64,000 nt of DNA from Rhodopirellula baltica SH 1 (GTDB taxonomy: Bacteria > Planctomycetota > Planctomycetia > Pirellulales > Pirellulaceae): assembly GCF_000196115.1 (NCBI RefSeq), contig NC_005027.1, positions 1,798,001-1,862,000 on the forward strand. Direction: 5' to 3'. Below the pieces are notes generated by a model. That model did no database searches. It was given only the letters and a program-made list of their open reading frames with translations, and was not told the origin of the DNA. Numbering within the stretch: position 1 is the first letter of the stretch; every line of letters begins with the position of its first letter. A program made the translations under genes and the position numbers. Below, piece after piece: positions 7,333 to 24,000 of this stretch.

Positions 7333-8502
7333 ATGAGTGTAGCGAAACCCGAGTCGGTACGTGCAGTTGCGATGACGGCACCCGGTGCCACAGAGATGCG
7401 CACCTATCCGTATCCCACAGTGGATCACGACTCGGCCATTTTGAAAGTCGACATGTCCGGCATCTGTGGCACTGACCGGCACATCTTCAAAGGAGAAGCA
7501 TCAGAGCTTCGTGGTAAATCAATTTTCCCGTATGTGGGCGGTCACGAGGTGATCGGCACAATCGTCGAGATTGGTGACAACGCCGCGAAGGTGATGGACT
7601 ACGACAAGCAACCTTTGCAAGTCGGTGATCGAGTCGCGATTGCGGTCGAGGTGAACTGTGGTCACTGCTTCTATTGCCGCAAGCACTACAACAACACAAC
7701 TTGCCTCAATCAAATCCAAGCCTACGGTTTGCATCCCAATGCGGACACACTCCCTTACCTGAGAGGCGGGTTTGCCGAGTACATCTTCATTCGGCCGGGC
7801 ACTCATCTGTTCAAGGTGCCGGATGAAATGTCGACGGACGTCGCCGTCTTCGTCGAAGAAATGGCCGTTGCGTATCACAGTTTGGCTCGTGCGGCCGGAC
7901 CATTTGCCCCGGTGAACGAAGGCTTCGGGCCAGGCAACTCGGTGGCGGTGCTTGGCAATGGGCCCCTTGGAATTTTGCACGGCATCATGGCCAGCATCCA
8001 CGGCGCTGGGTTGCGAATTGCAACGGACCTGTCCGATTTGCGATTGGAGAAAGCAAAGAACCTCTACGCGGATGTCACCATCAATGCGGCCAAGGTTTCG
8101 ACCGATGAACGCATTGAACAGGTGAAAGACATGACCGAAGGCGTCGGACCTGATCTGGTGATTGAATCAGCAGGTGAACCCGAAGCGTTCATCGAAGCAC
8201 TCCGGATGGTGCGGAAGGGAGGCACCGTCATCGAAGTTGGCAACTGGGTTGATCTCGGCAAACCAGTCGCACTCGACGTGATGCGACACATCAGTTCGAA
8301 GAACTTGCACATCCATTCGGTGTTCCACTGCGGAACGGATTGGCGTCCGGTGCTGAACATTCTGCACCAACAATCCGATCGCTACGACTTCCCATCCTTG
8401 ATCACACATCGATTCGGATTGGATGAGTTGGTGGACAAGTTCGGAACGGTCACCAACTTCGACGAATGCTGTAAAATCGAAGTGATTCCGCACAAAAGCT
8501 GA
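7333..8502 (+). CDS. Zinc-dependent medium-chain alcohol/polyol dehydrogenase
   Basis: A 389-residue MDR-family dehydrogenase from the ATG at 7333, which puts the family start MSVAKPESVRAVAM at the N-terminus; upstream in-frame TTG/ATG codons add 22-25 residues without similarity. Catalytic zinc ligands are Cys45 (GICGTDRH) and the His of GGHEVIG; the structural zinc lobe is the four-Cys pattern in CGHCFYCRKHYNNTTC. The nucleotide-binding Rossmann motif is VAVLGNGPLG. Such enzymes oxidise secondary alcohols or sugar alcohols with NAD(P). It lies between the AraC gene and the ribose transporter genes, which suggests a polyol or sugar substrate, but the substrate cannot be read from the sequence. 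Confidence 0.88.
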   Translation: MSVAKPESVRAVAMTAPGATEMRTYPYPTVDHDSAILKVDMSGICGTDRHIFKGEASELRGKSIFPYVGGHEVIGTIVEIGDNAAKVMDYDKQPLQVGDRVAIAVEVNCGHCFYCRKHYNNTTCLNQIQAYGLHPNADTLPYLRGGFAEYIFIRPGTHLFKVPDEMSTDVAVFVEEMAVAYHSLARAAGPFAPVNEGFGPGNSVAVLGNGPLGILHGIMASIHGAGLRIATDLSDLRLEKAKNLYADVTINAAKVSTDERIEQVKDMTEGVGPDLVIESAGEPEAFIEALRMVRKGGTVIEVGNWVDLGKPVALDVMRHISSKNLHIHSVFHCGTDWRPVLNILHQQSDRYDFPSLITHRFGLDELVDKFGTVTNFDECCKIEVIPHKS

Positions 8503-8664: not shown

Positions 8665-9072
8665 ATGAAACGCACCCGACTACTCAACAGCGAACTGAGC
8701 TACGAAATCAGTCGGATCGGGCACACCGCATCGATCACGTTGTGTGATGCCGGGTTGCCGATTCCTTCCGGAGTGAAGCGGATTGATTTGGCGATCGAGG
8801 AAGGGTATCCGACATTCTTGCGTACGCTGGATGCAATCTTAAGCGAGTTGAAGGTGGAGGAGATCGTGATTGCAAGCGAAATTCATGACCACAACCAAAT
8901 GTTGTTTGAGCAAATGATGAAACTCTTCGAAGCTCATCGAATGGCACCGAAGATCACGGAGGTTTCGCATGTGGAATTCAAGCAACGAACACAGGCCAGC
9001 GAGGCGATCGTTCGCACCGGGGAATGCACCCCGTATGCGAACGTCATCCTCAAGTCCGGCGTTGTTTTTTGA
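8665..9072 (+). CDS. rbsD: D-ribose pyranase RbsD
   Basis: A 135-residue protein of the RbsD/FucU family, which interconverts pyranose and furanose forms of ribose (or fucose) so that the kinase gets its furanose substrate. The N-terminal signature GHTASITLCDAGLPIP places His20 and Asp28 at the positions of the catalytic residues of RbsD. The C-terminal segment RTGECTPYANVIL matches the family's end. It starts the ribose gene series 162 bases after the dehydrogenase, with rbsB following at 42 bases. Confidence 0.92.
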   Translation: MKRTRLLNSELSYEISRIGHTASITLCDAGLPIPSGVKRIDLAIEEGYPTFLRTLDAILSELKVEEIVIASEIHDHNQMLFEQMMKLFEAHRMAPKITEVSHVEFKQRTQASEAIVRTGECTPYANVILKSGVVF

Positions 9073-9114
9073 CGTCGAAGTTATCCCCAACAACTTTTGA
9101 TCGAGACATTATTG

Positions 9115-10104
9115 ATGAGCCCAGGCAACCAACCCAAACGATTCGCGACATTGTTCGTGTGCGCGTTGGCACTCGTGATCAGTGGATGTCGCAGCGAAGC
9201 CAAACCCGCGGGCGGTTCCGCGGATTCCGACGCGACCAAACGAGTCGCCGTGATTGTTTCAACGCTGAACAACCCGTGGTTCGTCGTGCTCGCTGAATCC
9301 GCTCGAGACAGTGCCATTGAGCTAGGCTACGACGCGGTGATATTTGACTCTCAGAACGATCCATCGAAGGAAACGGCTCACTTCGACAATGTGATCGCCT
9401 CCGGTTACTCCGCCGTGCTCTTCAATCCGACGGACGCGGATGGTTCGATCGCGAACGTTCGTCGAGCGAAAGAAGCCGGCGTGCCCGTGTTCTGCATGGA
9501 TCGAGAAATCAACGCGACCGACGCTGCGGTTTCACAAATCCTGTCGGACAACTATTCCGGATGCGTTGCAATTGGGCAGCACTTCGTGAAAGAGGTTGGG
9601 GAGTCCGGGGAATATGCAGAGCTGCTCGGATTGGTTGGAGACAACAACACTCGCAATCGATCGGATGGATTCCACAGTGTGGTCGATCGCTATCCCGAAC
9701 TGAAAATGGTCGCGCAGCAAAGTGCTGACTTTGATCGTGCCAAGGCGTTGGAAGTGATGGAAGCAATCTTGCAAGCCAACCCTGACATCAAAGCGGTTTT
9801 CTGTGGCAACGACGCAATGGCGATGGGAGCGTACCAAGCTCTGTTGGCAGCGGGCAAAGCAGAGCAAGTCAAGATTTTTGGCTTCGACGGCGCTGACGAT
9901 GTGGTTGCGATGATTCAAGAAGGCAAGATTGTCGCGACGGGCATGCAGTTTCCCAAGTTGATGGCGAAGACAGCTGCGGAGTATGCGGACCAATATCTGA
10001 AGGGCGATCGAGACCTGCTGCAAAAGGTTCCGGTCGCCGTTGAATTGGTTCACCAAGGCAACGCGGAAAAGTTTGGTGACTTTGACGAAGAAGGTTCCGA
10101 GTGA
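9115..10104 (+). CDS. rbsB: Ribose-type ABC transporter substrate-binding lipoprotein RbsB
   Basis: A 329-residue periplasmic sugar-binding protein of the type 1 periplasmic binding protein fold (RbsB-like). The N-terminus is a lipoprotein signal with lipobox VISGC (Cys25), so it is probably membrane-tethered. Recognisable segments are [40 protein letters not shown] and [16 protein letters not shown], which follow the D-ribose-binding protein order. The ATG at 9115 gives a compact signal peptide; an upstream TTG (9097) adds only six residues. The stop overlaps the next gene's GTG start (GTGA). Confidence 0.92.
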
Positions 10105-10757
10105 TTTCGCGTCAACGCAAAGGGATCACTTGGTTGGTGATCACAATCGGAACCTTGGTGCTGCTGTATCTGTTCCCGCTAATCCACATCGTTTCACTGG
10201 ATGATGCGAACAAAGCCACCGCGAAAGCGACTGCGGCGAAGTTCGATCCGGTGAAGTTCGTGGATACGTTCTGGGACAGCGAGCTGCTTCCTTCGAAATC
10301 AGCCGCGGTCGATGCCGCCACGTTGGTCGCAAAAGTCAAAGCTGATCCGGCCAAAGCCCGTGAACAACACGGACGGCAGGTTGGACTGAGTCAATCGTAC
10401 TTCTACCACGTCACCGGTGTCGGACGAGTTGTCTCCGTTGAAAAGAATTTCATTGGATTGGCGATCTCGCCGGATTCGGAAAAGACGGAAGTGATTTTGG
10501 AAGCGGGAATCCTCTTCGGCAACACGGTTCGCGATGGCACAGGTTTGCTGGACGTGAATGACTTCAACAACACTCAGGACTTCAACGCCATTTCCACGGA
10601 ACTGAACCGCCGGATTGAAGCGAATGTTTTGCCAACGCTTCGAGAGATCGCGACGGTCGGCGCGGAAGTGCAATTCACCGGATGTGTCCAAGTCAACGAT
10701 GAGGACTCTGATCTTCAACCATTGAAAGTGGTCCCCTTCATCGTGGAGGCGAAATGA
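10101..10757 (+). CDS. DUF2291 family protein of the ribose transporter operon
   Basis: A 218-residue protein with one N-terminal hydrophobic segment (about residues 9-30, [21 protein letters not shown]) and a periplasmic body, matching the DUF2291 family that typically sits between the binding protein and ATPase genes of ribose-type ABC operons. Its function is not established; an accessory role in uptake is inferred from gene order. GTG at 10101 overlaps the rbsB stop, and its own stop overlaps the rbsA ATG. These overlaps indicate coupled translation within the transporter operon. Confidence 0.82.
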
Positions 10758-12289
10758 TTGTCTCCGATGACGTGGTGTTTGAGGCCAAACAGATTTCGAA
10801 GCTGTTTCCAGGCGTGAAAGCGTTGGACGGCGTTGACCTGACGTTGCGAGCGGGGAGGCTCACCACGTTGCTCGGCGAGAATGGCGCTGGCAAATCAACG
10901 TTGATGAAAATATTGGCGGGAGTGCAACCGCCCGACGAAGGCGAGTTGTTGGTGCAGGGTGAACCGGTTCATTTCACCAGCCCACGCGACGCGCAGGATC
11001 ACGGCATCGCGATGATCCATCAAGAACTGAGTTTGGTGCCCGATCTGACCGTCGCCGAAAACATTTTCCTTGGCCGTGAGCCGCTGCGTTTCGAAACGCT
11101 GATTGACTACACCGAACTGAACCGTCAAGCAAACGAATGGTTGAAACGTTTGGAACTCGACGTGTCGCCAACGACGCCCGTCCGGCGACTGCGAGTCGGT
11201 CAACAACAGTTGGTTGAGATTGCTCGCGCGTTGGCTGGCAACGTTCGAATCCTGATCATGGATGAGCCCACCTCCGCAATCACCGAACGCGAGACGGAGG
11301 TTCTGTTCCGATGCATTGCGGATCTAAAGAAACAGGGTGTCGCGATCGTCTATATCACTCACCGCTTGGAAGAACTCGAACAGATTGCTGACGACATTGT
11401 CGTGATGCGTGATGGTTGCTTGATCGGCACGGCCGAGTTTGGTGAGCTCAGCCACGACGCAATGGTTCGAATGATGGTTGGACGAGATGTGAAAATCCTT
11501 TCCAAGCAGTCTTCCTCCAACAATCAGCCGGTTCTTCGTGCCGAAGGGATCTCGCTCAGCCATCCAACACGGCCCGGCGACTACCTCGTGCACGAAGTTG
11601 ACATGCACGTTTGCAAAGGCGAAGTGCTGGGCATCTTTGGATTGATGGGGGCCGGTCGCACGGAATTGCTGGAGTGTTTGTTCGGACTGCACCCGACGGC
11701 GTCGACCGGGCAGGTGAGCATGCACGATCGAAGTGTTCGATTGAGAAACCCCGCCGATGCAATTTCTCATGGTTTGGCGTTGGTCCCCGAGGACCGAAAG
11801 CAGGATGGTTTGGTGTTGTCGATGTCCGTCGGTGAAAACGCGAGCCTGGCGAGCCTCAAACACGCTGAACGGTTTGGCTTCATCGATCGTGGGCGGGAAC
11901 GCGAGCACACTCGGCGTTTCGTGGAACGTTTTCGCGTGAAGACACCGTCGCTGCGTGAAAAGATCATCAACTTGAGTGGTGGCAACCAGCAGAAAGTGAT
12001 CTTGGCGAAATGGTTGGCGACTGGGCCTGCCGTGCTGATGCTCGACGAGCCCACTCGCGGGATCGATATCCATGCCAAGAACGAGATCTATTCGCTCATC
12101 AATGAACTGACCGCTGACGGATTGGCGGTGATCATGGTTTCATCGGAATTGCCCGAGGTGATGGCGGTTTCCGATCGGATTTTGGTGATGTGCGAAGGGC
12201 GTGCAACCCAATCGTTCGACCGTTCTGAGGCCACGGAGGAAAATATTCTGCAAGCGGCTTTACCGAGAAGGAACTCGATTCCATGTTAG
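10754..12289 (+). CDS. rbsA: Ribose/sugar ABC transporter ATP-binding protein RbsA
   Basis: A 511-residue tandem ATPase of the RbsA/MglA type. The first nucleotide-binding domain has Walker A GENGAGKST (residues 41-49), signature-region RVGQQQLVEIARAL and Walker B ILIMDEPTSA. The second has the family's degenerate Walker A (GLMGAGRTE), an intact signature LSGGNQQKVILAKWL and Walker B LMLDEPTRGID. This asymmetry is normal for the family. It energises import together with the permease encoded next, whose start overlaps this gene's end by 7 bases. Confidence 0.96.
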   Translation: MIVSDDVVFEAKQISKLFPGVKALDGVDLTLRAGRLTTLLGENGAGKSTLMKILAGVQPPDEGELLVQGEPVHFTSPRDAQDHGIAMIHQELSLVPDLTVAENIFLGREPLRFETLIDYTELNRQANEWLKRLELDVSPTTPVRRLRVGQQQLVEIARALAGNVRILIMDEPTSAITERETEVLFRCIADLKKQGVAIVYITHRLEELEQIADDIVVMRDGCLIGTAEFGELSHDAMVRMMVGRDVKILSKQSSSNNQPVLRAEGISLSHPTRPGDYLVHEVDMHVCKGEVLGIFGLMGAGRTELLECLFGLHPTASTGQVSMHDRSVRLRNPADAISHGLALVPEDRKQDGLVLSMSVGENASLASLKHAERFGFIDRGREREHTRRFVERFRVKTPSLREKIINLSGGNQQKVILAKWLATGPAVLMLDEPTRGIDIHAKNEIYSLINELTADGLAVIMVSSELPEVMAVSDRILVMCEGRATQSFDRSEATEENILQAALPRRNSIPC

Positions 12290-13254
12290 AAAACAAACGC
12301 GAACACCTCGCGAAATTTCAATCGCTGATCGCGTTGGCAGTGATGCTGATCGCGATGAGCTTTCTGTCAGACAGTTTCTTCACGCCCGAGAATGGGTTGA
12401 ACATTCTGAGACAAATTTCAGTCAATCTCAGCCTTTCGATTGGGATGACATTGATCATCTTGACCGGCGGAATCGACTTGTCGGTCGGTGCCATTCTCGC
12501 TTTGTCCGGCGCCGTGGCGGCAGGGTTGCTGAAGAACGGCATCATGCTCGAACCGCTTGGTGTGAAGCTGGAGTTCACCGTTTTCGGAGCGATTGTTTCT
12601 GGATTGTTGGTCGGTTCCGCCGCAGGGTTGTTCAATGGAGTCGCGGTGACTCGTTTCAAGCTTCCGCCGTTTGTCGCCACGCTGGGAATGTTCAGCATCG
12701 CTCGTGGTTTGACGATGTTGTGGACGGGCGGGTTCCCGGTCACGGGTCTCGGTTCATCGTTCGGTTCCATCGGCACGGGCGTGTTCCTGCAAATTCCGGT
12801 TCCGGTTTGGATCACCGGTGCATTGGTTGGCGTGTTTGTGCTGTTGACCCGGACAACTCGTTTTGGCCGGCATGTGTACGCGGTTGGCGGCAACGAACGC
12901 GCTTCGTTGTTGACAGGATTGCCAGTCGATCGGATCAAAATCGCGGTTTACACGCTCGGTGGTTTGCTCGCTGGAGTGGCGGGACTCATCGTGACCGCTC
13001 GACTGGATTCGGCTCAACCCAACGCAGGGTTGGGCTACGAACTCGATTCGATTGCCGCCGTCGTGATTGGTGGCACATCCCTGTCGGGCGGACGAGGCAG
13101 CGTCATGGGGACGGTGCTGGGTTGCCTGATCATTGGTGTGTTGAACAACAGTTTGTTTCTGTTAAACGTTTCCCCTTTTTGGCAACAAGTGGTCAAGGGA
13201 TTCGTGATCCTGGCCGCCGTCGCCGTGGACCGCATGAGTCAAAGGGACCGATAA
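12283..13254 (+). CDS. rbsC: Ribose/sugar ABC transporter permease RbsC
   Basis: A 323-residue inner-membrane permease of the BPD_transp_2 type with roughly eight to ten hydrophobic segments. The conserved stretches MTLIILTGGIDLSVGAILAL, GLFNGVAVTRFKLPPFVATL and the C-terminal IAAVVIGGTSLSGGRGSV are characteristic of RbsC/XylH permeases. It overlaps rbsA by 7 bases and is followed after a single spacer base by ribokinase. Standard length. Confidence 0.95.
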   Translation: MLENKREHLAKFQSLIALAVMLIAMSFLSDSFFTPENGLNILRQISVNLSLSIGMTLIILTGGIDLSVGAILALSGAVAAGLLKNGIMLEPLGVKLEFTVFGAIVSGLLVGSAAGLFNGVAVTRFKLPPFVATLGMFSIARGLTMLWTGGFPVTGLGSSFGSIGTGVFLQIPVPVWITGALVGVFVLLTRTTRFGRHVYAVGGNERASLLTGLPVDRIKIAVYTLGGLLAGVAGLIVTARLDSAQPNAGLGYELDSIAAVVIGGTSLSGGRGSVMGTVLGCLIIGVLNNSLFLLNVSPFWQQVVKGFVILAAVAVDRMSQRDR

Positions 13255-13255
13255 G

Positions 13256-14200
13256 ATGACAGACACAATGACACGCCCGAAGATCACCGTCGTTGGTTCG
13301 GCCAATGTGGATCTGACGTTTCGCACACCGCGATTGCCCGTGCCTGGTGAAACCTTTGCGGGACATTCGCTGCATCAAGGCATGGGTGGCAAAGGTGCGA
13401 ACCAAGCGGTCGTCGCCGCCCGACTCGGTGCCGAAGTCGCCTTTGTCGCTCGCGTCGGAAATGACGGATTCGCGACGCAGGCCATCGACGCCTACCAGAC
13501 AGACGGAATCAACACGTCCTTCGTTCAACATTCCAAAGACCAGCCTACCGGCACGGCTGCGATTTTGGTGGATGATGATGCAGAGAACTGCATCATCGTT
13601 GTTGCGGGCGCCAACGCGGAATTGAATGCGGACGATGTTCGATCGGCGAAGGATGTGATCGCATTTTCCGATGTTGTGATCTGCCAATTGGAAACTCCAG
13701 TGGAGGCGGCTCTCGAGGCGTTCAAACTGGCTCGTGCGGCCAACGTCCTGACGATGCTCACGCCGGCTCCCGCGGAACTTGTTTCGGATGAACTGCTTTC
13801 GCTTTGCGATGTTTGTGTCCCCAACAAGACCGAGATTGCCGCCATCACGGGTTGCAGTGTGGAGACACAGGCTGACTGTGCTGCCGCCGCTGAACAGTTG
13901 AGGCAACGTGGCGTTCGACAAGTTGCACTGACGATGGGCGGCGAAGGCGTTTTGGTGCTCGACCGATCGGGGATGTCCCTCATTCCTGCCTCACCCGTCA
14001 AAGCGGTCGACACCACCGGGGCCGGCGATGCATTCACTGGTGCATTGGCGGTCTCGCTCGCCGAAGGAATGTCTTTGGCCGACGCTGCCACTCGTGCCGG
14101 GATCGTTGCGGCCATCTCGGTCACACGCGTCGGCACTCAAACATCCTTTCCTTCGCTCGATGAAATCAATCGCTGGAAGCAAGCTGAGAACACTGCATGA
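13256..14200 (+). CDS. rbsK: Ribokinase RbsK (PfkB family)
   Basis: A 314-residue PfkB-family kinase that phosphorylates ribose to ribose 5-phosphate with ATP. The N-terminal substrate motif is GSANVDLTFRTPRLPVPGET with the GGKGAN motif at residues 44-49. The C-terminal signature DTTGAGDAFTGAL has the catalytic Asp at about residue 258. The ATG at 13256 follows the rbsC stop with one base between. Its stop overlaps by 4 bases (ATGA) the start of a secreted DUF1593 protein, which ties that protein to ribose metabolism at the translational level. Confidence 0.95.
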   Translation: MTDTMTRPKITVVGSANVDLTFRTPRLPVPGETFAGHSLHQGMGGKGANQAVVAARLGAEVAFVARVGNDGFATQAIDAYQTDGINTSFVQHSKDQPTGTAAILVDDDAENCIIVVAGANAELNADDVRSAKDVIAFSDVVICQLETPVEAALEAFKLARAANVLTMLTPAPAELVSDELLSLCDVCVPNKTEIAAITGCSVETQADCAAAAEQLRQRGVRQVALTMGGEGVLVLDRSGMSLIPASPVKAVDTTGAGDAFTGALAVSLAEGMSLADAATRAGIVAAISVTRVGTQTSFPSLDEINRWKQAENTA

Positions 14201-15639
14201 AAAACCTCTTCAAACTCTTGATGGTTCTGCTGGCGACGTCCTCGTTTGTTGCGGCCGATGACGGCTCAACTGCAAAAGCGAGAATGGTTGTGCTGACCGA
14301 CATCGAAGCGGACCCAGACGACACTCAGTCGCTGGTTCGACTGCTGCTTTACGCCAATTCGATTGATATTGAAGCGATTGTGGCAACGACATCGGTGCAC
14401 CAAAAAAATCGAGTGGCTCCGGAGTCCATCCAGCGTGTCATTGATGCATATGGCAAAGTCCAACCCAACCTTCTGAAACACGAACCTGGATTTCCCACCG
14501 CGGATGCGTTTCACAAACTGGTCACCAAAGGGTTGCCTTTGTACGGGATGAACGGAGTCGGTGACGGAATGGATTCGCCAGGTTCGGATCGCATCATCGA
14601 ATTACTCGATCGCGATGATGAACGGCCACTTTGGATTTCGGTATGGGGAGGCCCCAATACGCTTGCGCAGTCCCTGCACAAACTTCGCAAGACTCGACCG
14701 GGCGAGGACGTCAAACGTCTGGTCAAGAAGCTTCGTGTCTACACGATCTCTGACCAAGACGATTCTGGGATTTGGTTGCGAAACGAATTCCCGGATCTGC
14801 AATACGTCGTTAGCCCCGGACGTTACGAACGCTCGACTTGGGGCGCGATCAACCAGGTCGTGGAGGGAATCGACAACACGACGATCAGCAACACTTGGTT
14901 GGCCAATCACATCCAGCAAGGCCATGGTCCGCTGGGAGCTGAGTATCCCGATGTTGCATGGGGAGTCGAAGGCGACACGCCCGCTTTCCTGGGGTTGATT
15001 CCCAATGGCTTGAACGTTTCCGAACGCCCGGACTTCGGTGGATGGGGCGGTCGCTACGAACTTGGCCAGCCCAGCGATGATGAGATTCAGGTTGGCCGTG
15101 AAGTGCAGGGTGGCGTGCCGATCCTCGCCGAAACGCGTCCCATCTGGGGCAACGCCAGCGACACGTATCGACCGCGATTGTTTCATGATCAGAAGCGTGC
15201 TGAAAAGCCCAGCGATGAAACGTTCACCGGAAACCGTGTCACATTGTGGCGGTGGCGAGATGACTTTCAGAACGACTTTGCCGCCAGAATGGATTGGTGC
15301 ACTGCAAACTACGAAGACGCCAACCATCCGCCTGTGCCAGCACTCGCCCATGCGGAAACGCTGAACGTGAAATCGGGCGAGCAGTTCCGTTTGGACGCAT
15401 GGGGAACAACCGATCCCGATGGTGACAGTCTCAGTTACACGTGGATGTACTACCCCGAAGCAGGATCGACACCGCTTGATCTGGATATCGGTCAGTCGCC
15501 AGAAAACGTCTACCAGGTGACCCGCACGGCTCCGAAACTCGACCAACCCGAGACGATGCACTTCATTCTGAAGGTCACCGATCGCGGCATGCCAAGGCTC
15601 ACCCGATACAAGCGAGTGATCGTGACGGTTCAACCCTAA
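14197..15639 (+). CDS. Secreted DUF1593 protein 1, nucleoside-hydrolase-like
   Basis: A 480-residue protein with a signal peptide (about residues 1-20). The N-terminal domain resembles nucleoside hydrolases. An acidic motif, TDIEADPDDTQS (Asp35, Asp39, Asp41, Asp42), sits after the first beta strand, where nucleoside hydrolases hold calcium and ribose with DTDxGxDD. Conserved blocks include [43 protein letters not shown] and [12 protein letters not shown]. The C-terminal 100 residues form an Ig-like domain (DPDGDSLSYTWMYYPEAG). The family is often labelled cellulose-binding Sde182-like; its reaction is not settled. The ATG overlaps the rbsK stop. Glycosidic release of ribose outside the cytoplasm is my inference from fold and context. 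Confidence 0.8.
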   Translation: MKNLFKLLMVLLATSSFVAADDGSTAKARMVVLTDIEADPDDTQSLVRLLLYANSIDIEAIVATTSVHQKNRVAPESIQRVIDAYGKVQPNLLKHEPGFPTADAFHKLVTKGLPLYGMNGVGDGMDSPGSDRIIELLDRDDERPLWISVWGGPNTLAQSLHKLRKTRPGEDVKRLVKKLRVYTISDQDDSGIWLRNEFPDLQYVVSPGRYERSTWGAINQVVEGIDNTTISNTWLANHIQQGHGPLGAEYPDVAWGVEGDTPAFLGLIPNGLNVSERPDFGGWGGRYELGQPSDDEIQVGREVQGGVPILAETRPIWGNASDTYRPRLFHDQKRAEKPSDETFTGNRVTLWRWRDDFQNDFAARMDWCTANYEDANHPPVPALAHAETLNVKSGEQFRLDAWGTTDPDGDSLSYTWMYYPEAGSTPLDLDIGQSPENVYQVTRTAPKLDQPETMHFILKVTDRGMPRLTRYKRVIVTVQP

Positions 15640-15717
15640 CGAAGACCAATTGCAAGGCAGTCAACAGGCCGCAATGCGACGCAGACAAGTGACACCTTTC
15701 TCCCCACGAGTGACACC

Positions 15718-17190
15718 ATGATGATGCGCAGCCAACTCAACCAATCCCATTTCCGCAATTTGTGCATCTGTGTCTGGATGGGAGGTCTTTGCCTTTTTTC
15801 CACCGCGATGCCCAACATTGTCAACGCGGCGGAGCGGCCTCGGATTTTGGTCACCACGGACGGTGAGATTGATGACGAATGTTCGATGGTTCGATTCTTA
15901 TTGTACGCCAATGAGTTCGACATCGAAGGCATCGTCACTTCGAGTTCACAGTATCACTGGCAGGGTTTTGAGTGGGCGGGCGACAGTTGGATTGACCCAT
16001 ATTTGAACGCTTACACGGATGTGTATCCCAATCTCGTTCAACACGATGATCGATTCCCGACGCCTGAATTCCTTCGCAGCATCACCAAGTTAGGAAACGT
16101 CAAAGCCGAAGGCGAAATGGAGGACGTAACCGAGGGATCGCAGTTGATCGTCAAGGTTCTCCTGGACGACACGGATTCGCGCCCCATTTGGTTGCAGGCC
16201 TGGGGCGGTACGAACACGATCGCCAGGGCTTTGAAGACGATCGAAGAAGAACATCCGGATCGCATGGCTGAAGTCGCGGCCAAGATCCGGCTGTACTGCA
16301 TCTTCGAACAAGATGCGACCTATCAAGATTACATCTTGCCACATTGGGGCAAGTATCAAATGACCACGATCATCTCAGACCAGTTCGAGGCGATCGCGTA
16401 TCGATGGAAAAAGATTCAGCCCCCTGCTCAACACAAATACTTCGCCGCCCCGTGGATGAAGAAGAACATCCTGAATGATCACGGCCCGCTTTGTTCACTT
16501 TTTAAGAGCCACCAAGCGGGCGAAGAGGGATTCAGCGAAGGCGACTTTCGTTCCGAAGGTGACTCACCGGCTTTTCTTCACAACGTGGTGACTGGTCTTC
16601 GCAGTCAAGAGTCGCCCGATTGGGGCGGTTGGGGCGGACGCTTTGTTTGGATTCGCGAAAACACCTGGATGGACCCTGCACCATACGAAGGATACCAGCA
16701 TCCAGAGGGACGCTATTTTCGCGAAACTTGCTGGGGACGGCTGAGTCTCAACGCGGGCATGACGTCTCACAACGACCCGCGAATGCTTGAGTTCTTTCGT
16801 CCAACATGGCGTTGGTCGGTCGCTCAACAGAACGACTGGGCGGCGCGAGCGGATTGGTGTGTTCAGCAGTTTGACCAAGCCAATCACGCTCCTGAGGTAC
16901 GCATCGATCACGGTGCCGACTTGAAATTCGGAGCGGGTGCCAAAGTCAGGCTGAGCGCGAAAGGTACCAGTGACCCAGACGGAGACGAGCTTCAGTATCG
17001 CTGGTGGCAGCACACCGAAGCTGACACCTACGACGGGACGGTTGAGATCTCCAACGCAAATCAACAGCAAGCCGAATTCGTTGCTCCCAGCGATGCGAAA
17101 GGCAAAACCGTTCACGTGATTTGCGAAGTGACCGACAGTGGCACGCCACTAATGACACGGTACCAGCGGGTTGTCGTCGAGTTGCATTGA
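15718..17190 (+). CDS. Secreted DUF1593 protein 2, nucleoside-hydrolase-like
   Basis: A 490-residue paralogue of the preceding gene with a signal peptide (about residues 1-37, ending near VNAAE). Its acidic motif is shortened, TDGEIDDE (Asp48, Asp52, Asp53), unlike the TDxxxDPDD form of its neighbours. The shared blocks [37 protein letters not shown] and NDWAARADWC are present. A C-terminal Ig-like domain (DPDGDELQYRWWQHTEADTY) matches proteins 1 and 3. It starts 78 bases after protein 1. A different substrate from protein 1 is possible given the altered metal motif. Confidence 0.78.
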   Translation: MMMRSQLNQSHFRNLCICVWMGGLCLFSTAMPNIVNAAERPRILVTTDGEIDDECSMVRFLLYANEFDIEGIVTSSSQYHWQGFEWAGDSWIDPYLNAYTDVYPNLVQHDDRFPTPEFLRSITKLGNVKAEGEMEDVTEGSQLIVKVLLDDTDSRPIWLQAWGGTNTIARALKTIEEEHPDRMAEVAAKIRLYCIFEQDATYQDYILPHWGKYQMTTIISDQFEAIAYRWKKIQPPAQHKYFAAPWMKKNILNDHGPLCSLFKSHQAGEEGFSEGDFRSEGDSPAFLHNVVTGLRSQESPDWGGWGGRFVWIRENTWMDPAPYEGYQHPEGRYFRETCWGRLSLNAGMTSHNDPRMLEFFRPTWRWSVAQQNDWAARADWCVQQFDQANHAPEVRIDHGADLKFGAGAKVRLSAKGTSDPDGDELQYRWWQHTEADTYDGTVEISNANQQQAEFVAPSDAKGKTVHVICEVTDSGTPLMTRYQRVVVELH

Positions 17191-17252
17191 AATTGACCAA
17201 ACAACCGCACAAGCAGAAATTCATTCCCCACTTCGATGCTTTGACCATCCCC

Positions 17253-18584
17253 ATGATCCACACCATTCTCTTTCGAGCTTTGACGATTTCGGTTGTCTTC
17301 GGTCTGACAACGGCCTCCTCGGCCGACTATTCCAAACCTCGAATGATCGTGACGACCGATTTGGGTGCTGACCCGGACGATGATCAGTCGTTGGTTCGAT
17401 TGCTCGTCAGTGCCAACGAATTCGACATCGAAGGTCTTGTCATTTCCACCGGATGCTGGAAGAAGACGCAGAGCAACACCAAAATGCTGGACAAAATCGT
17501 TGATGCCTACGGCGAGTGTTATGACAATCTCAAGATTCACGCCGACGGATTCCCGACGCCGGACTATCTGCGTTCGATCTCGGTCATGGGACAACTCGGT
17601 TATGGCATGAGCGATGTGGGCGACGGCAAAGACTCGCCTGGATCGGACATGATCATCGCGTCTGCAGACAAAGATGATCCACGGCCCATTTGGATCGGTG
17701 GTTGGGGCGGGAACAACAATGTCGCTCAAGCGATCTGGAAAGTCCGCAAAACACGGTCCAAAGCCGAACTCGAGAAATTTCTTTCAAAGCTTCGTGTGTA
17801 CGACATCCTCGGACAAGATGACGCGGGAGCGTGGATTGCCAAGAACTACCCGCAAGTTTTCTACATACGAGCAACGAAGGTTTACGGTTGGCAGCCGCCA
17901 AAGAATGGCGACTACCAAAAGAATGACATTCAAAGTCATGGACCGCTGGGTTCCGTCTACCCGGATACAAAGTGGGCAACCGAAGGTGATTCCCCTGCGT
18001 TCATGCATGTGTATCCGAACGGCCTGAATGATCCAGACCAAATCGACCAAGGTGGTTGGGGTGGACGATTCAGCTTTGAAAAGAAGACCGGCATCAAAAG
18101 TATGTCGGGGGTGAAGGGGGAAGAACGCAAGTTCGATCCGTACGAGATGTGGGGAAACACATCCGATGGAACCGGCGCGATCAAACGCTGGAGCAAAGGC
18201 TACAACAACGACTTTGCAGCACGGATGGATTGGAGCATCACGAACAAGTACTCCGAAGCGAATCATCATCCGATTGCCGTTTTGAACGGTGACACGACTC
18301 GCGATGTGATGAAGATGTCCGTTGAGGCTGGTGCGAGTGTTTTGCTGAGTGCGAAGGGCACCAGCGATCCCGACAACAATTCGATTAGCTATTCATGGTC
18401 GATCTACCAAGAGCCATCCACCTACAAAGGGAATGTTTCGGTAGCAAACGCATCCTCCGAGACCGCCAAAATCTCGGTGCCAAAGGACGCGGCGGGTAAG
18501 ACGGTTCATGTGATTTTGGAGATTCATGACGACGGCCAGCCCAGCCTGCACGCCTATCGCAGAATGATTTTGGAGGTGCGCTAA
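17253..18584 (+). CDS. Secreted DUF1593 protein 3, nucleoside-hydrolase-like
   Basis: From the ATG at 17253 this is a 443-residue paralogue with a signal peptide of about 23 residues (MIHTILFRALTISVVFGLTT then ASSADYS). The frame is open back to 17121, but that overlaps the previous gene and the added residues lack signal-peptide character. The acidic motif is TDLGADPDDDQS (Asp36, Asp40, Asp42, Asp43). The blocks WGGNNNVAQAIWKVRKTRSK, YDILGQDDAGAWI, EGDSPAFMHVYPNGLN and [10 protein letters not shown] follow. The C-terminus is the same Ig-like domain (DPDNNSISYSWSIYQEPSTY). This is the last gene before a repeat-bearing gap. Confidence 0.78.
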   Translation: MIHTILFRALTISVVFGLTTASSADYSKPRMIVTTDLGADPDDDQSLVRLLVSANEFDIEGLVISTGCWKKTQSNTKMLDKIVDAYGECYDNLKIHADGFPTPDYLRSISVMGQLGYGMSDVGDGKDSPGSDMIIASADKDDPRPIWIGGWGGNNNVAQAIWKVRKTRSKAELEKFLSKLRVYDILGQDDAGAWIAKNYPQVFYIRATKVYGWQPPKNGDYQKNDIQSHGPLGSVYPDTKWATEGDSPAFMHVYPNGLNDPDQIDQGGWGGRFSFEKKTGIKSMSGVKGEERKFDPYEMWGNTSDGTGAIKRWSKGYNNDFAARMDWSITNKYSEANHHPIAVLNGDTTRDVMKMSVEAGASVLLSAKGTSDPDNNSISYSWSIYQEPSTYKGNVSVANASSETAKISVPKDAAGKTVHVILEIHDDGQPSLHAYRRMILEVR

Positions 18585-18588
18585 CGGG

Positions 18589-18696
18589 CTGTTGATTTGA
18601 TGAGCCGTACCGCGTTAGCGGCGGTTAGTCAGACGCCAACCGGGGCTAACGCCCATCGGCTAATTGTTGTCACTCTGTATACGATCAAATCAACAG
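18589..18696. repeat. 108-bp element with 13-bp terminal inverted repeats
   Basis: The ends are a perfect 13-bp inverted pair, CTGTTGATTTGAT (18589-18601) and ATCAAATCAACAG (18684-18696). The interior carries AACCGGGGCTAACGCCC (18638-18654), whose reverse complement recurs at 20000-20016. It looks like a small non-autonomous repeat or REP/MITE-like element. It begins 5 bases after the stop codon of DUF1593 protein 3. Confidence 0.6.
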
Positions 18697-18723
18697 GCTG
18701 CTAAGCAGTTCGGAAGGAAAACT

Positions 18724-18793
18724 CGGGCAGAACCATTTGAGCCGTTTGGGCATTCGCTCCGGTTCTTCGTGGGAGCAACGAGGCTTGCTATAA
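18724..18793 (+). repeat. Imperfect ~70-bp direct repeat, copy 1
   Basis: This copy aligns with 19976-20045: GGGC-GAACCAT-TGA-GCCGTTTGGGC, then a CGGTT segment, then GAGCAACG-GCTTGC in the same order. The two copies bracket the epimerase gene. Confidence 0.55.
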
Positions 18794-19045
18794 GCACGTG
18801 AGCGGGATTCATGGGGCTTGATCACGTAGCGGCGTCTCTCCGTAACGCTGTTATTTGCGAGTCTCTGAGAGACTCGCCTACGCGAGGTCCTAACCGATCA
18901 TTCCTGCCGGCCTGCTTCAGTAAAGAAAGGTGTAAGGGAGGTAATTGGCTTCGATCCGATCTTCACCTCTTGTGGCCGTATAACCCAACACAACCTCTCC
19001 ATCCAATCGGTCGGCTGATGCCGCACCACACCAACGAGACAGGAA

Positions 19046-19927
19046 ATGCGAATACTTTTTACCGGTGGATCAGGCAAAGCGGGACGTCACGTGGTGACTC
19101 ACCTGGCGAATCGAGGTCACACGGTGATGAACTTGGACCTCGTCCCGGCGAACATTGACGGCGTTTGGGACATGACGGTCGATCTCACGGATGCAGGACA
19201 AGTCTTCTCGGCGATGTCGGGAATAGTCGGCTTCGATGATTTGGAGTCGACCGATGGTCCTCCGAAGTTCGATGCTGTGGTTCACTTTGCGGCGGTACCT
19301 CGCATTCAGTTACGGCCGGATCCGGAATGTTTTCGGGTCAATACGACGTCGACCTACAACGTGCTGGAAGCCGCGGTGAAGCTCGGTATTCCCAAGGTCT
19401 TGTTTGCTTCGTCCGAGACCACCTATGGGGTCTGCTTTGCTCATGGAGAAGTCAAACCGGAATACATCCCCGTGGATGAACAGCACCCGACGGTCCCGCA
19501 CGACGCTTACGCAATGTCAAAGGTTTGCAACGAGGTCTGCGGCCGCAGCTTTCAAGCTCGATCGGGAACCGACATTTACGCCTTGCGAATCAACAACGTG
19601 ATCGAGCCACATGAGTACGCGAGTCTGGTTCCGGTATGGAGCGGCGATGCGGCGTGCCGGCGTCGCAACATCTTTGCGTACATCGACACACGCGATCTGA
19701 GTCACTTCGTCGACTGTGCTCTGGCAACCGATGGTCTCGGTTTCCAAGTCTTCAACGTCGCGAACGAAGATTCCTCGGTTGGAATGCCGAGTGCCGAAGT
19801 GATCGTGAATTTTTATGCTGGCGTCCCGCAGCGACGCGAGTTGGGCGAGTTCGAAACGTTCTATTCCATCGACAAGGCAAAGGAGTTGTTGGGTTGTGCG
19901 GCGCCGTCTCGCTGGAGAAACGCGTGA
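19046..19927 (+). CDS. NAD(P)-dependent epimerase/dehydratase (extended SDR)
   Basis: A 293-residue extended short-chain dehydrogenase of the nucleotide-sugar epimerase/dehydratase type. The N-terminal Rossmann motif is FTGGSGKAGRHV (GxxGxxG). A substrate region VVHFAAVPRIQLRPDP follows, then the Ser of FASSETTYG and the catalytic Tyr-Lys pair in DAYAMSK. Such enzymes act on sugars or sugar-derived lactones in the cytoplasm. It lies on the same strand as the DUF1593 genes but is bracketed by two imperfect repeats, so it may be a later arrival. The C-terminal LLGCAAPSRWRN resembles the usual W-R ending of the family. Confidence 0.85.
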   Translation: MRILFTGGSGKAGRHVVTHLANRGHTVMNLDLVPANIDGVWDMTVDLTDAGQVFSAMSGIVGFDDLESTDGPPKFDAVVHFAAVPRIQLRPDPECFRVNTTSTYNVLEAAVKLGIPKVLFASSETTYGVCFAHGEVKPEYIPVDEQHPTVPHDAYAMSKVCNEVCGRSFQARSGTDIYALRINNVIEPHEYASLVPVWSGDAACRRRNIFAYIDTRDLSHFVDCALATDGLGFQVFNVANEDSSVGMPSAEVIVNFYAGVPQRRELGEFETFYSIDKAKELLGCAAPSRWRNA

Positions 19928-19975
19928 CGATTTCCTTGGCAGTCCGTCGCTACACGCAAGCAAGCAATAGCAGTC

Positions 19976-20045
19976 GGGCCGAACCATATGAAGCCGTTTG
20001 GGCGTTAGCCCCGGTTGCAGATGCGAGCAACGGTGCTTGCCCTAA
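19976..20045 (+). repeat. Imperfect ~70-bp direct repeat, copy 2
   Basis: This is the second copy of the repeat at 18724-18793. It includes GGGCGTTAGCCCCGGTT (20000-20016), a perfect 17-bp reverse complement of part of the inverted-repeat element at 18638-18654. It fills most of the gap between the epimerase and ThuA-like genes. Confidence 0.55.
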
Positions 20046-20104
20046 CAGCTCCACAACCGACTGACTCCTGCCGACTTGCTTCCCCACCACCAGACTATCA
20101 CATC

Positions 20105-21025
20105 ATGAACATTTTATTCCAACTCCGCTTCCTCATCCTTTCGTGCACGATGTTGTGTGCGTTGCTTCCTTCGAGTTCGGCGGTTGCGCAGGAAAAACTC
20201 GATGTGTTGTTGGTCACAGGCCAATCGTCCAAGTACCACAACTGGGAAGTCCAAAGCACGGCGTTCAAACGCATGCTCGAGGACGCTGGGATATTCAACG
20301 TGCGATTGCTGACAACACCCGCTTCTGGTGAAGACATGTCGGGCTTCGATCCTGTGTGGACTGACTACGACGCGGTGCTTCTGGATTACGAAGGCGACGA
20401 TTGGCCCGATGCCGCCAAGAAATCATTTGAAAAGTACATGGAACAAGGAGGCGGCTTGGTTGTTGTTCACGCGACCAACAACGCATTTCCAAACTGGCAA
20501 GCCTTCCTTGATATGACCGGGCTGGGCGGCTGGGGTGGACGCACAGAAGAGTGGGGACCGAAGGTTCGTTGGCGCGACGGCAAGACTGTCTTGGACACCT
20601 CGTCTGGAACCGCTCAGCATCCATCTCGTCATGATTTTCCAGTCGTGTCCCGTGCCCCAGAGCATCCGATTATGAAGGGATTGCCTTCGATGTGGTTGCA
20701 TGCAAACGACGAGCTGTATTCCCAGCTTCGCGGACCCGCGAATGATTTGACGGTGCTTGCAACCGCGTCGGCGGTCAGATCGATGCGCAACGGCACCGGT
20801 GAGAACGAGCCCATCTTGATGACGATCCAGTATGGCAAGGGACGGGTTTTTCATACCACGCTCGGACACGTTGCACCCAATCAATCCGAACCGGTCGATT
20901 CGCTCCAGTGTGTCGGCTTCATCACGACTCTCCAACGCGGCACGGAGTGGGCAGCGACTGGAACAGTGACTCAAGAAATTCCCGACGACTTCCCCACCGC
21001 CGATCAAACCTCGCTTCGTCAATAA
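20105..21025 (+). CDS. Secreted ThuA-like protein (trehalose-utilisation domain)
   Basis: A 306-residue protein with a signal peptide (about residues 1-28, ending SSSAVAQ) and a ThuA-type class I glutamine-amidotransferase-like fold. The body begins DVLLVTGQSSKYHNW, followed by YDAVLLDYEGDDWPD, GGGLVVVHATNNAFPNW and MTGLGGWGGRTEEWGPKVRW. The C-terminal block ILMTIQYGKGRVFHTTLGH is typical. ThuA-like proteins accompany sugar catabolic gene sets in planctomycetes; the reaction here is unknown. The ATG at 20105 is chosen because it starts the signal peptide; the longer frame from 20015 adds non-signal residues. Confidence 0.82.
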   Translation: MNILFQLRFLILSCTMLCALLPSSSAVAQEKLDVLLVTGQSSKYHNWEVQSTAFKRMLEDAGIFNVRLLTTPASGEDMSGFDPVWTDYDAVLLDYEGDDWPDAAKKSFEKYMEQGGGLVVVHATNNAFPNWQAFLDMTGLGGWGGRTEEWGPKVRWRDGKTVLDTSSGTAQHPSRHDFPVVSRAPEHPIMKGLPSMWLHANDELYSQLRGPANDLTVLATASAVRSMRNGTGENEPILMTIQYGKGRVFHTTLGHVAPNQSEPVDSLQCVGFITTLQRGTEWAATGTVTQEIPDDFPTADQTSLRQ

Positions 21026-21061
21026 TTCACCTCTCATCCCCAAACTTGGAAGGACGTTCCC

Positions 21062-22495
21062 GTGCCGTTTTTGTCCCGTTTACTTGTTTTGCTTGTTCTC
21101 TGTGTGACGCCGGCGATCGCCAGTGTTGCAAACGCCGACAAGCCTCGTCTCTTTGTCCTGACTGATATCGAAAATGAACCCGACGATGCGATGTCGATGG
21201 TTCGGTTGCTGACCTATGCCAACCAAATTGATATCGAGGGGTTGGCCGCGACGACTTCGGTTCACCAACAGCGCCGGACGGCACCGGATCGGATTCGCCG
21301 AATCGTCAAGGCTTATGGTGAGGTTCGTGACAACTTAGAAAAGCACGAAGCGGGGTTCCCGACGGAGGACGAACTTCTCAATCGCGTGACCGAAGGCCTT
21401 GCCGTGTATGGCATGCAAGGTGTTGGTGAAGGCAAGGACTCGGACGCTTCGAACGATTTGATCGAGGCGGTCGATCGCGATGACCCACGGCCGATCTGGG
21501 TCACGGCATGGGGCGGCCCAAGCGTGCTGGCTCAGTCATTGTGGAAAGTGCGAGAGACTCGAAACGCGGACGAACTGAAAGCGTTCATCCAGAAAATTCG
21601 CGTCTATACGATCTCGGACCAGGACGATAGCGGACCGTGGATACGGGAACAGTTCCCGGATCTGTTCTATGTCGCCAGCCCAGGGTTCTATCCCGGCGGA
21701 GCCTATCAGCATGCGACTTGGAGTGGAATCAGCGGCGACTACTTTCACGCTCGTTGTGATGGAGCGGATTTCTCGTTGGTGACCAATGAATGGCTCGACA
21801 AAAACCTTCGTCGCAAAGGACCGCTTGGCAAAGAGTACCCACTTTGGGAATACCTGATGGAAGGCGACACTCCGTCGTTTCTGAACTTGATCGACAATGG
21901 TTTGAACGAGCCGGAACATCCAGATTGGGGCGGATGGGGCGGCCGTTACGAGTTGTACACACCGCGAATGCAGAAGTGGTTCTTGCAGGCCGAGACTCGT
22001 CCGTTTTGGTCCAACGCGGAGGACGAAGTGTTGGGAACAGACGGTCGGTGGCACCGAGGCAACCACGAAACGATTTGGAGATGGCGGGAGGCTTACCAAA
22101 ACGACTTCGCCGCCCGAATGGACTGGACGATTCAATCAGTCGAAGATGCGAATCATCCCCCCGTTGTGAAGTTGGCTCACGCCGAACGTCTGACCGCGAA
22201 AAAAGGCGACGTCGTTGAATTGAGTGCGGAGGGATCAAGCGATCCCGACGGCGATTTGCTGTCGTACGAATGGTTGTACTACCCTGAAGCGGGAAGCTTT
22301 CTTTGTTCGAGTGGCACGAACGCTCGTCCTGTCGCAATCAATGGCTTTGACAACGCGACGGCTTCGTTCACCGTCCCGACGCGGACTGTGATGCCACCGG
22401 GCACCGGTACGATGCACTTCATCGTGGCGGTCACGGATCATGGTTCGCCTCGACTGACCCGCTACGCTCGTGTCATTGTGGATGTCGTGAAATGA
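21062..22495 (+). CDS. Secreted DUF1593 protein 4, nucleoside-hydrolase-like
   Basis: A 477-residue paralogue starting at GTG 21062, with a signal peptide (residues 1-25, ending SVANA). The acidic motif is [12 protein letters not shown] (Asp35, Asp41, Asp42). The middle blocks [47 protein letters not shown] and FAARMDWT are close to protein 1, as is the C-terminal Ig-like domain ([18 protein letters not shown]). The stop overlaps the next DUF1593 gene by 4 bases (ATGA). The similarity to protein 1 suggests these two are the closest pair. Confidence 0.78.
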
Positions 22496-23781
22496 TGAAT
22501 CGTTTGCTGCTTTGTCTGCTGTGCTTGGGTGTTTCGGTAATGCTGGAAGGGGATGTCGCTGCGCAGGATGCTCCGGTGTCCGGCGTCAGCGAACGTCATC
22601 GAGTGATCGTCTTGACCGATATCGGCGGGACGGACCCGGATGACTTCCAGTCGATGGTGCATTTGCTGTTGTACGCTGATGTGCTGGACATCGAAGGTCT
22701 CATTTCCTCGCCGTTTGGTGATGGTCGAACGAGCGATATCCTGCGAGTGATCGATTGTTATGAGGCGGACTATCCCAATTTGCGGAAGCATTCCGAACGC
22801 TATCCAGCGGCAGCCCAACTTCGCTCGATCACGAAACAAGGTGAAACCGAGCGAGCTCCTTACGCGGGCTTTCGAAAATCGACTGAAGGATCAAACTGGA
22901 TCGTCGAGTGTGCGCGTCGCGAAGATCCGCGTCCCCTGCATGTCTTGGTGTGGGGCGGTTTGGAGGACTTGGCTCAGTCACTGCATGACGCGCCGGACAT
23001 CTTGCCAAAGTTGCGTGTGCACTGGATCGGCGGGCCCAACAAGAAGTGGTCCGCTGACGCGTACCAGTACCTCGTCGATCACCATCCAGAATTGTGGATG
23101 ATCGAATCCAACTCGACCTACCGAGGCTGGTTCGTCGGCGGAAACCAGTCTGGTGATTGGAGCAACAAACGCTTTGTTGCATCCAAGGTCGCCGGCAGAG
23201 GGAAACTGGGCGACTTCTTTGTGCGTCAAATGGCCGACATCAAAATGGGTGACACACCCACGGTTGCTTGGTTGTTGCACGGAGATCCATCGGATCCATC
23301 TCAACCCAGTTGGGGTGGACGCTTTGTCCGGGCTTGGCAGCGGCCGACGATGCGTCTTGACCGTATGCCAGTCCAAAGGGATCAGATGGAGGTCTTTGGT
23401 GTTCTGGAATTGGTGCTCGCGATCGATTCAAACGCTGCTCCAACAAAGGCTGTCTTGGTGGTCGAGAACCAGCGTTTGGAAGGTCACCTCGGCGATGATT
23501 CGGCGGTTCATTTTCGGTTTTGCCCGAAGGCTGCCAAGCGATATGACTTTCGAATCGAGAGCGATTCAAAAACGCTGGACGGACAACGCGGATCGATCAC
23601 GGTCGTGAACCCGTCACCGGGGCTTGCCAACCATCCGTCAGCGGACTTGCCGAATTGGTGGACGGACGATCCAGACATGAAGTCATCGGAAGGTCCTCAC
23701 CGTGGGGCCAAAACGGTCAATCGTTGGCGGGAAGATTACCTGCGTGATTTTGAGTCGCGATTGAATCGCTGTCTTCCCTGA
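22492..23781 (+). CDS. Secreted DUF1593 protein 5, divergent
   Basis: A 429-residue member with a signal peptide (about 25 residues, ending DVAAQ). The acidic motif is [13 protein letters not shown] (Asp43, Asp48, Asp50, Asp51). It keeps [15 protein letters not shown] and [19 protein letters not shown] but lacks the DPDGD Ig-like domain of the other four. Its C-terminal part is different and ends with a [18 protein letters not shown] segment equivalent to the FAARMDW region. The ATG overlaps the stop of protein 4. It probably represents a separate subfamily with its own substrate. Confidence 0.74.
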
Positions 23782-23814: not shown

Positions 23815-24000
23815 CACTGCGTTTGTGCCCCTCGAATGGAATTGCCTGGAAGACTGGCGTGAGTTCTCCGGAACGATTGTTGCAGTCTTTTGCTGGGTGT
23901 TGACGGTGGAAGGTTCGACGATCTAGACATTGTCAACGAAGGCACACAGCAGCAGGGATGCCAGTTTGATGACAATGTCTTGTCGGGGACAGCGAAAAGC

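Follow-up and report, generated by a model that had tools for sequence, protein, structure and literature searches.

A ribose-type uptake operon adjoined by five predicted secreted Sde182 proteins in Rhodopirellula baltica: a possible pentose-scavenging locus

The ribose operon and its Sde182 genes

The stretch considered here, 64,000 nucleotides of the Rhodopirellula baltica SH 1 genome (NC_005027.1, positions 1,798,001 to 1,862,000; hereafter the window), belongs to a single contig of 7,145,576 bases and carries a ribose-type (Rbs) ATP-binding cassette (ABC) transporter operon followed by five genes of the Sde182 family (PF07632, DUF1593), here named S1 to S5. Their products are predicted to be secreted proteins with the fold of nucleoside hydrolases (NHs), and the stretch is tentatively read as a pentose-scavenging locus. 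Among the named genomes of the collection used for comparison, Rhodopirellula europaea and Rhodopirellula sp. SM50 are the nearest relatives.

An earlier note, made from the DNA alone, had described a complete ribose module running into five DUF1593 proteins, a ThuA-domain protein and an epimerase, and every one of these genes was located by open reading frame (ORF) listing and family scans (Table 1). The pyranase, binding protein, ATPase, permease and ribokinase of a ribose uptake operon are present together. RbsD and RbsK pass the curated NCBIfam cut-offs for D-ribose pyranase and ribokinase respectively, RbsK lying under the cut-off of the E. coli-type model NF008353, while RbsB, RbsA and RbsC match sugar-transport families but fall under the equivalog cut-offs.

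From rbsB through S1, neighbouring genes overlap or almost touch. The 4-nt overlap of RbsK and S1 (14197-14200) is kept in loci L120 and L121, and S4 and S5 also overlap by 4 nt (22492-22495). That the rbs operon and the first Sde182 gene form one unit is well supported, because of this overlap and its conservation within the genus. S3 is parted from the epimerase gene by a 461-bp gap carrying an inverted repeat with 20-nt arms, and the second half of the array may therefore be a separate transcript; the earlier description of an operon joined to all five genes holds at the RbsK/S1 junction and may not extend, as one transcript, beyond this gap.

The AraC-family regulator and the zinc dehydrogenase, upstream of rbsD, belong to the conserved block. 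The dehydrogenase gene lies immediately upstream of rbsD or rbsB in all nine transporter-holding loci, and the regulator adjoins the transporter in eight of them (the exception being L125); no zinc dehydrogenase was seen in loci L130-L134, which belong to another family. The ThuA and epimerase genes were rejected as core members, their presence varying among the relatives' loci: the epimerase was not found in L041, L124 and L125, nor the ThuA gene in L041, L120, L124 and L125.

Table 1. Features of the ribose/Sde182 stretch, in window coordinates
Feature	Position	Strand	Evidence or remark
AraC-family regulator	6252..7121	-	PF12833 3.4e-21; divergent from operon
Zinc-dependent alcohol/polyol dehydrogenase	7258..8502	+	PF08240/PF00107
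RbsD, D-ribose pyranase	8665..9072	+	NF008761 176.6 bits, cut-off 93
RbsB, periplasmic sugar-binding protein	9115..10104	+	PF13407 4e-59; lipoprotein-like start by eye
DUF2291 protein	10101..10757	+	PF10054 1.8e-57
RbsA, sugar ABC ATPase	10754..12289	+	ABC_tran, two stretches
RbsC, sugar ABC permease	12283..13254	+	PF02653 8e-47; top NCBIfam model ribose permease, under cut-off
RbsK, ribokinase	13256..14200	+	TIGR02152 377 bits, cut-off 299.65
S1, Sde182/DUF1593, predicted secreted NH-fold protein	14197..15639	+
S2, Sde182/DUF1593	15718..17190	+	PF07632 2.9e-75; clade support 0.995
S3, Sde182/DUF1593	17250..18584	+	PF07632 1.7e-92; clade support 1.0
S3, alternative start	17121		TTG; gives longer ORF
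Inverted repeat, 20-nt arms, spacing 82 nt	18582..18703	.	between S3 and epimerase
NAD-dependent epimerase/dehydratase, optional	19046..19927	+	PF01370 7e-22
ThuA-domain protein, optional	20105..21025	+	PF06283 2.4e-25
S4, Sde182/DUF1593	21062..22495	+	PF07632 4e-112
S5, Sde182/DUF1593	22492..23781	+	without Sde0182_C match

Sde182 family, fold and putative active site

All five proteins match PF07632 (E 5e-61 to 4e-112; 207 to 375 bits, the cut-off being 26.8), and S1-S4 also match Sde0182_C (PF21027), for which S5 gave no match at E 0.001. Nor did Pfam detect a carbohydrate-binding module in any of the five at this threshold, and cellulose-binding is for them a name only. The signal peptides are assigned by visual inspection. 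The window genome has seven PF07632 genes, two of them outside the cluster.

Pairwise identity among S1-S5 is 29 to 49%. In a midpoint-rooted tree of 140 sequences, the largest clade excluding the other four paralogues was taken for each protein, with supports from S1 to S5 of 0.88, 0.995, 1.0, 0.40 and 1.0. The S1, S2, S4 and S5 clades include other phyla, with identities of up to 64, 64, 74 and 61% to the window protein, whereas in that of S3 all members are planctomycetes. Sets such as S1, S5, S4 and S2 were found together in Bacteroidota loci (L077, L079, L069), and the five-paralogue array seems to be an ancient set and not the outcome of a local burst. Recent tandem duplication was rejected for S1, S2 and S5 on the tree clades and identities; the rejection is weaker for S4, given its clade support, and for S3, given its planctomycete-only clade. 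It was also observed that L121:12185-17098 encodes a 1637-amino-acid protein in which Sde182 and Sde0182_C stretches each occur twice within a single frame, and that a similar tandem occurs in a Prolixibacteraceae metagenome-assembled genome (MAG; L052:6846-9857).

The structural comparison with NHs proposed in the earlier note revealed the NH fold in predicted models of S1 and S5; the NH-likeness of the family is already published (2YHG; Pfam name of PF07632). Four aspartates (D35, D41, D42 and D260 in S1) are invariant in 53/53 aligned Sde182 proteins from several phyla. In a profile alignment with nine true NHs, positions 35, 41 and 42 fall on RihA D10, D14 and D15, and D260 falls on D241 only in a low-confidence tail (confidence threshold zero). 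The alignment is weak (E 0.048 for the whole proteins and 0.0053 for the N-terminal domain alone, with probabilities of 1 and 7%), and a first comparison with two NHs only gave no usable alignment. In this register the conserved aspartates align with the metal and catalytic set of the NHs, in keeping with the earlier observation of an acidic motif resembling their calcium/ribose site. RihA residues D8, N39, E164, N166 and D170 are shared by all nine NHs; D8 has no counterpart in the Sde182 alignment, and the word E[FY]N occurs in none of the 53 Sde182 proteins, compared with E164 and N166 in all nine NHs. On this alignment the Sde182 proteins appear to have retained the NH aspartate set and to lack the substrate motif E-F-N, and the assignment of S1-S5 to an NH-fold family with a kept aspartate set is supported.

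The solved member of the family, Sde_0182, is described in a review as having kept calcium while being inactive on purine and pyrimidine nucleosides, and as retaining ribofuranose binding, so that it may be a furanose-interacting module (PMC8910321). Sde182 proteins might accordingly be non-catalytic furanose-binding modules that capture or present glycans without hydrolysis, which would agree with the inactivity of Sde_0182, the absence of the NH substrate motif and the C-terminal beta domain in four of the five window proteins. The invariance of the four aspartates across several phyla suggests instead a metal centre under selection, and five divergent paralogues in one locus also argue against simple binding modules, a role we regard as unlikely.

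The earlier note had favoured release of ribose, or a ribose-like sugar, from nucleosides or glycosides outside the cytoplasm. Extracytoplasmic nucleosidases that split environmental RNA or DNA nucleosides, with import of the ribose, would make use of the NH fold seen in the S1 and S5 models, of the invariant aspartates and of an RbsD and RbsK that are ribose-specific by curated models. RNA is a common source of ribose, and one plasmid-borne Sde182 copy has a dihydropyrimidinase gene at a distance of about 4 kb. Such a role is nevertheless improbable in view of the missing E[FY]N word and the reported inactivity of Sde_0182 on nucleosides (PMC8910321). Neighbouring genes are mostly glycan enzymes, pectinases among them that a nucleosidase would hardly explain, and no nucleoside-salvage family appears in the 25 commonest of 148 neighbour families, compared with control NHs adjoining adenosine deaminase in 2/7 cases (in two of the seven records this region carries no annotation). 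Nucleoside salvage was rejected as first choice on the inactivity of Sde_0182, the neighbour census and the absence of E-F-N; of the earlier proposal, the wider wording of a ribose-like sugar from glycosides fits best.

Linkage to the transporter and the sugar imported

DUF2291 (PF10054) was used as a marker for the transporter. It occurs in 6/13 genomes of the genus, the window genome included; in each of the six, Sde182 genes lie no farther than about 5 kb from the marker. The marker is scarcer elsewhere, being found in 4/60 sampled genomes of the family and 6/393 of the phylum. It is also rare in Bacteroidota (4/296, chosen centre included), where Sde182 lies no more than about 6 kb away in genomes G071 and G235 but not in G098 and G110. 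Sde182 was found near the transporter in 0/7 transporter-bearing planctomycetes outside the genus, five of which belong to one other family of the order and two of which are fragmented, their contigs ending soon; six of the seven have Sde182 elsewhere in the genome. As for background occurrence, Sde182 is present in 18/195 genomes of the phylum sample (15 over the cut-off), in 7/15 same-family genomes without DUF2291 and in 1/20 Bacteroidota controls (the first 20 listed). Fisher and Poisson figures are rough, as phylogeny is ignored, genome sets differ and the 66 Bacteroidota loci are an estimate, and they were not relied on.

Starting from Sde182 instead, a set of 80 loci was examined, the best 80 of 304 relatives and biased to S1-like proteins. 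RbsB or RbsC lies in the examined flank of eight, two from planctomycetes (R. europaea, L040, the same genome as G062, and Rhodopirellula sp. SM50) and six from Bacteroidota (Arthrospiribacter, a Prolixibacteraceae MAG, Arenibacter, Euzebyella, Dyadobacter and a Cytophagales MAG), with varying gene orders. Elsewhere the transporter module is partial in L107 and whole in L137. The Euzebyella locus (L064) reads on one strand as regulator, isomerase, split transketolase, S1, S4, RbsB, DUF2291, RbsA, RbsC, FGGY kinase, an esterase-like ORF and S2, with a 4-nt overlap of S4 and RbsB. The link between DUF1593 and ribose transport that the earlier note expected to recur does so throughout the transporter-bearing members of the genus and in several Bacteroidota, but not in planctomycetes outside the genus; a fixed partnership of the family with ribose transport was rejected, the link being recurrent but partial. 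No statement linking DUF1593/PF07632 to ribose transport or pectin was found in the open-licence literature, outside which most subscription journals lie, and the placement of Sde182 beside an Rbs-type transporter looks to be the new part.

This patchiness might mean co-regulation only, the importer and plant-glycan enzymes sharing control as plant detritus supplies both, with no substrate passed between them. The counts of 0/7 and 8/80 would suit that explanation, as would the variation by lineage of the catabolic genes beside the transporter. It is less easily reconciled with L064, where Sde182 genes sit between catabolic and transport genes with a 4-nt overlap, or with the RbsK/S1 overlap in the window, and we consider it distinctly unlikely.

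In place of rbsD and rbsK, the transporter of Bacteroidota and of planctomycetes from the other family (L130-L137) is accompanied by a FucI-like isomerase, a split transketolase and an FGGY kinase, and these loci gave no match to RbsD or RbsK. The module common to both phyla in L130-L137 comprises the FucI-like isomerase, split transketolase, RbsB, DUF2291, RbsA, RbsC and FGGY kinase. For the isomerase of L064, sequence comparison at E 0.001 gave no solved relative. A further planctomycete locus (L128:2108-17992) combines an Rbs-type transporter, a zinc dehydrogenase and an AraC regulator without an RbsD or RbsK match, and adjoins three apiosidase-like proteins (one by Pfam, two by similarity). 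In the window operon no isomerase, FGGY-type kinase or split transketolase is annotated; the FucI-like isomerase has no match in the window genome, and for the kinase and transketolase the result covers the operon only.

The nearest solved relative of the window RbsB is the Thermotoga maritima ribose-binding protein (2fn8, 1e-111). Ten planctomycete and Bacteroidota RbsB proteins share 60 to 82% mutual identity and 31 to 36% identity with E. coli RbsB. At 13 pocket columns, chosen after the E. coli RbsB contacts, the window protein carries the same letters as 2fn8, a ribose-type pocket; 16 of 20 relatives are identical there, with one column changed in each of the remaining four. Eight of the 13 columns differ from the binding protein of the E. 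coli apiose cluster, and four from the Rhizobium etli protein of 4ry0 and 5ibq, reportedly crystallised both with ribose and with apiose. By these columns the pocket favours ribose for the window and would also be compatible with apiose.

D-apiose may be the transported sugar, with Sde182 proteins as apiofuranosidases or helpers acting on apiogalacturonan or rhamnogalacturonan II and an importer that carries both apiose and ribose. Isomerase aside, the D-apiose cluster of E. coli SE15 has the same kit as the Bacteroidota and other planctomycete loci, and strains with that cluster grow on apiose (PMC13001218). PF13204 apiosidase-like genes occur in several clusters. The structure 5ibq is reportedly an apiose complex of an Rbs-type binding protein. 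Set against this are the window RbsD and RbsK, which point to ribose, the lack of a close FucI-like isomerase in the window genome, and a pocket that departs from the E. coli apiose-cluster protein while equalling that of T. maritima. Because apiose cannot adopt a pyranose form, RbsD would be left without a ring conversion to perform. The field of candidates is also wider, since D-arabinose is predicted for the extra enzymes of the T. maritima ribose operon, itself induced 14- to 92-fold on ribose versus glucose and almost as much on xylose (PMC3750489). Apiose import is rather unlikely as a whole, although it overlaps with the preferred reading of pentose scavenging from pectic or similar glycans, from which it differs in the sugar, and the confidences placed in the two overlap as well. 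Ribose is the better guess for the window genome because of RbsD and RbsK, and apiose the better fit to pectin.

Glycan neighbours, interpretation and known systems

One association with pectin is a 685-amino-acid fusion in the congener G061 (L121:17129-19186), in which a pectate lyase domain (PF00544, 80-246, 3.5e-23) is joined to Sde182 (PF07632, 375-635, 1.7e-69). RbsK precedes the fusion by some 6.4 kb in the same array, where an apiosidase-like protein is encoded as well. A pectate lyase gene is placed between the RbsK and Sde182 genes in G063 (L124); its product has no Pfam match at E 0.001, and its nearest solved relative is 9buj (1.8e-48). In SM50 (L041), PL10-like and GH43 genes follow the Sde182 genes, and another array (G039) holds S2, GH127, a pectate lyase and S5. 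PL10-like neighbours occur in 10/80 loci. Among loci with more than one Sde182 gene, 10 of 25 have neighbours resembling PL10, PL1, GH28 or PF13204; where the gene is single, the figure is 2 of 55. Within the genus, strong PL10 matches were found in 3/6 operon-bearing and 1/7 other genomes.

A census of 67 loci, from which L040, L041 and 11 near-duplicate loci were omitted, gave 334 ORFs within 4.5 kb, defined by length only. Among the 111 scanned of the nearest 115 there were four each of GH39 and PL10, three each of GH43, GH5 and esterases, and two each of CE15 and GH28; xylan-type loci occur too. Four of twelve plasmid records were viewed and showed GH115 genes, uronate catabolism with GH43, a rhamnosidase with GH1, and the dihydropyrimidinase. 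In the Selenomonas ruminantium plasmid pSRC2 (L145), DUF1593 stands between a beta-glucoside phosphotransferase-system transporter and GH1, near a rhamnosidase, in what resembles a locus for plant diglycoside utilisation.

The reading tentatively preferred, in which our confidence falls a little below even, is that the stretch is a pentose-scavenging locus whose Sde182 proteins free furanosidic pentose from glycans, pectic or similar, and so supply the Rbs importer. Outside the cytoplasm, the five secreted proteins would act on pentose units in furanosidic linkage within glycans from plants or algae, pectic ones most probably; the released pentose would be bound by RbsB and imported by RbsAC, after which RbsD would set its ring form and RbsK phosphorylate it. 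Catalysis by Sde182 at an O-glycosidic bond, releasing ribose (or apiose) from pectin-like material, is something we infer from the neighbourhood and the pectate lyase fusion.

Several observations weigh against pentose scavenging from pectin. Ribose is not a usual pectin sugar. The transporter link is missing from all seven out-of-genus planctomycetes, and 72/80 S1-like loci have no RbsB or RbsC in the examined flank (both 10-kb flanks being complete in 48/80). The pectinase queries were picked after the loci had been viewed, several of the ten multi-gene loci are from Arenibacter, and the neighbours are mixed, with GH39, GH43, GH5 and CE15 beside pectinases. No pectinase lies inside the window cluster, a strong PL10 gene being located about 43 kb upstream of rbsD. 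PF13204 as an operon marker in the genus was not supported, as it occurs in 11/13 genomes with and without the operon; the window genome has two such genes, far from the cluster. Finally, Sde_0182 is reviewed as catalytically inactive, nucleosides having been the substrates tested (PMC8910321).

A bolder and more doubtful extension, which we think possible but somewhat unlikely, is that Sde182 constitutes a new superfamily of secreted, calcium-dependent NH-fold glycosidases, recruited from N-ribosyl to O-furanosyl bonds and stripping pectic pentofuranose, its co-inherited subfamilies forming one cascade that would feed an Rbs-type importer in both Planctomycetota and Bacteroidota.

No assigned activity for PF07632 was found in the open-licence literature. 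The family's conserved gene context supplies a substrate class that can be tested, and the fusion of pectate lyase with Sde182 points to a specific first assay. Should the proteins prove active, a fold known for nucleosides would also serve glycan breakdown, annotations such as cellulose-binding would be corrected, and the multiple copies in some planctomycetes and marine Bacteroidota would be easier to explain.

Other genes of the window were noted in passing. Just downstream of S5, 23890-25275 (+) encodes a DACNV sensor domain with a weak DisA-type diadenylate cyclase match, and by reading a similar ORF follows the array in L120, L122 and L123. A TpsB/FhaC-like outer-membrane transporter (27364-29214, -) is divergent from a 4254-amino-acid haemagglutinin-like exoprotein with many similar repeats (29580-42344, +), the two resembling, by reading, a two-partner secretion pair. 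At 52205-54118 (+) a glucosamine-6-phosphate deaminase-like domain appears, also by reading, to be fused to a PIG-L-like deacetylase domain.

Compared with known systems, the locus combines familiar parts. The E. coli SE15 D-apiose cluster shares DUF2291, an Rbs-like ABC transporter, an FGGY kinase and a split transketolase with the Bacteroidota and other-family planctomycete loci, but its binding-protein pocket differs, no DUF1593 is annotated in its 49-kb stretch, and two short-chain dehydrogenase/reductase genes are hypothesised in place of the isomerase (PMC13001218). In the ribose (RbsR) regulon of T. maritima, RbsB is the nearest solved relative of the window protein, while T. maritima itself, used as a control genome, is not among the PF07632-positive genomes. 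Unlike the NHs RihA, YeiK and RihC of E. coli, S1-S5 have signal-peptide-like starts and have not kept D8 and E-F-N, S1-S4 carry an extra beta domain, and Sde182 neighbourhoods are of glycan type. Sde_0182 of Saccharophagus degradans (2YHG) shares PF07632 and PF21027 with the window proteins and is described as preceded by three carbohydrate-binding domains (PMC8910321), of which Pfam finds none in S1-S5; these sit, instead, in an Rbs operon.

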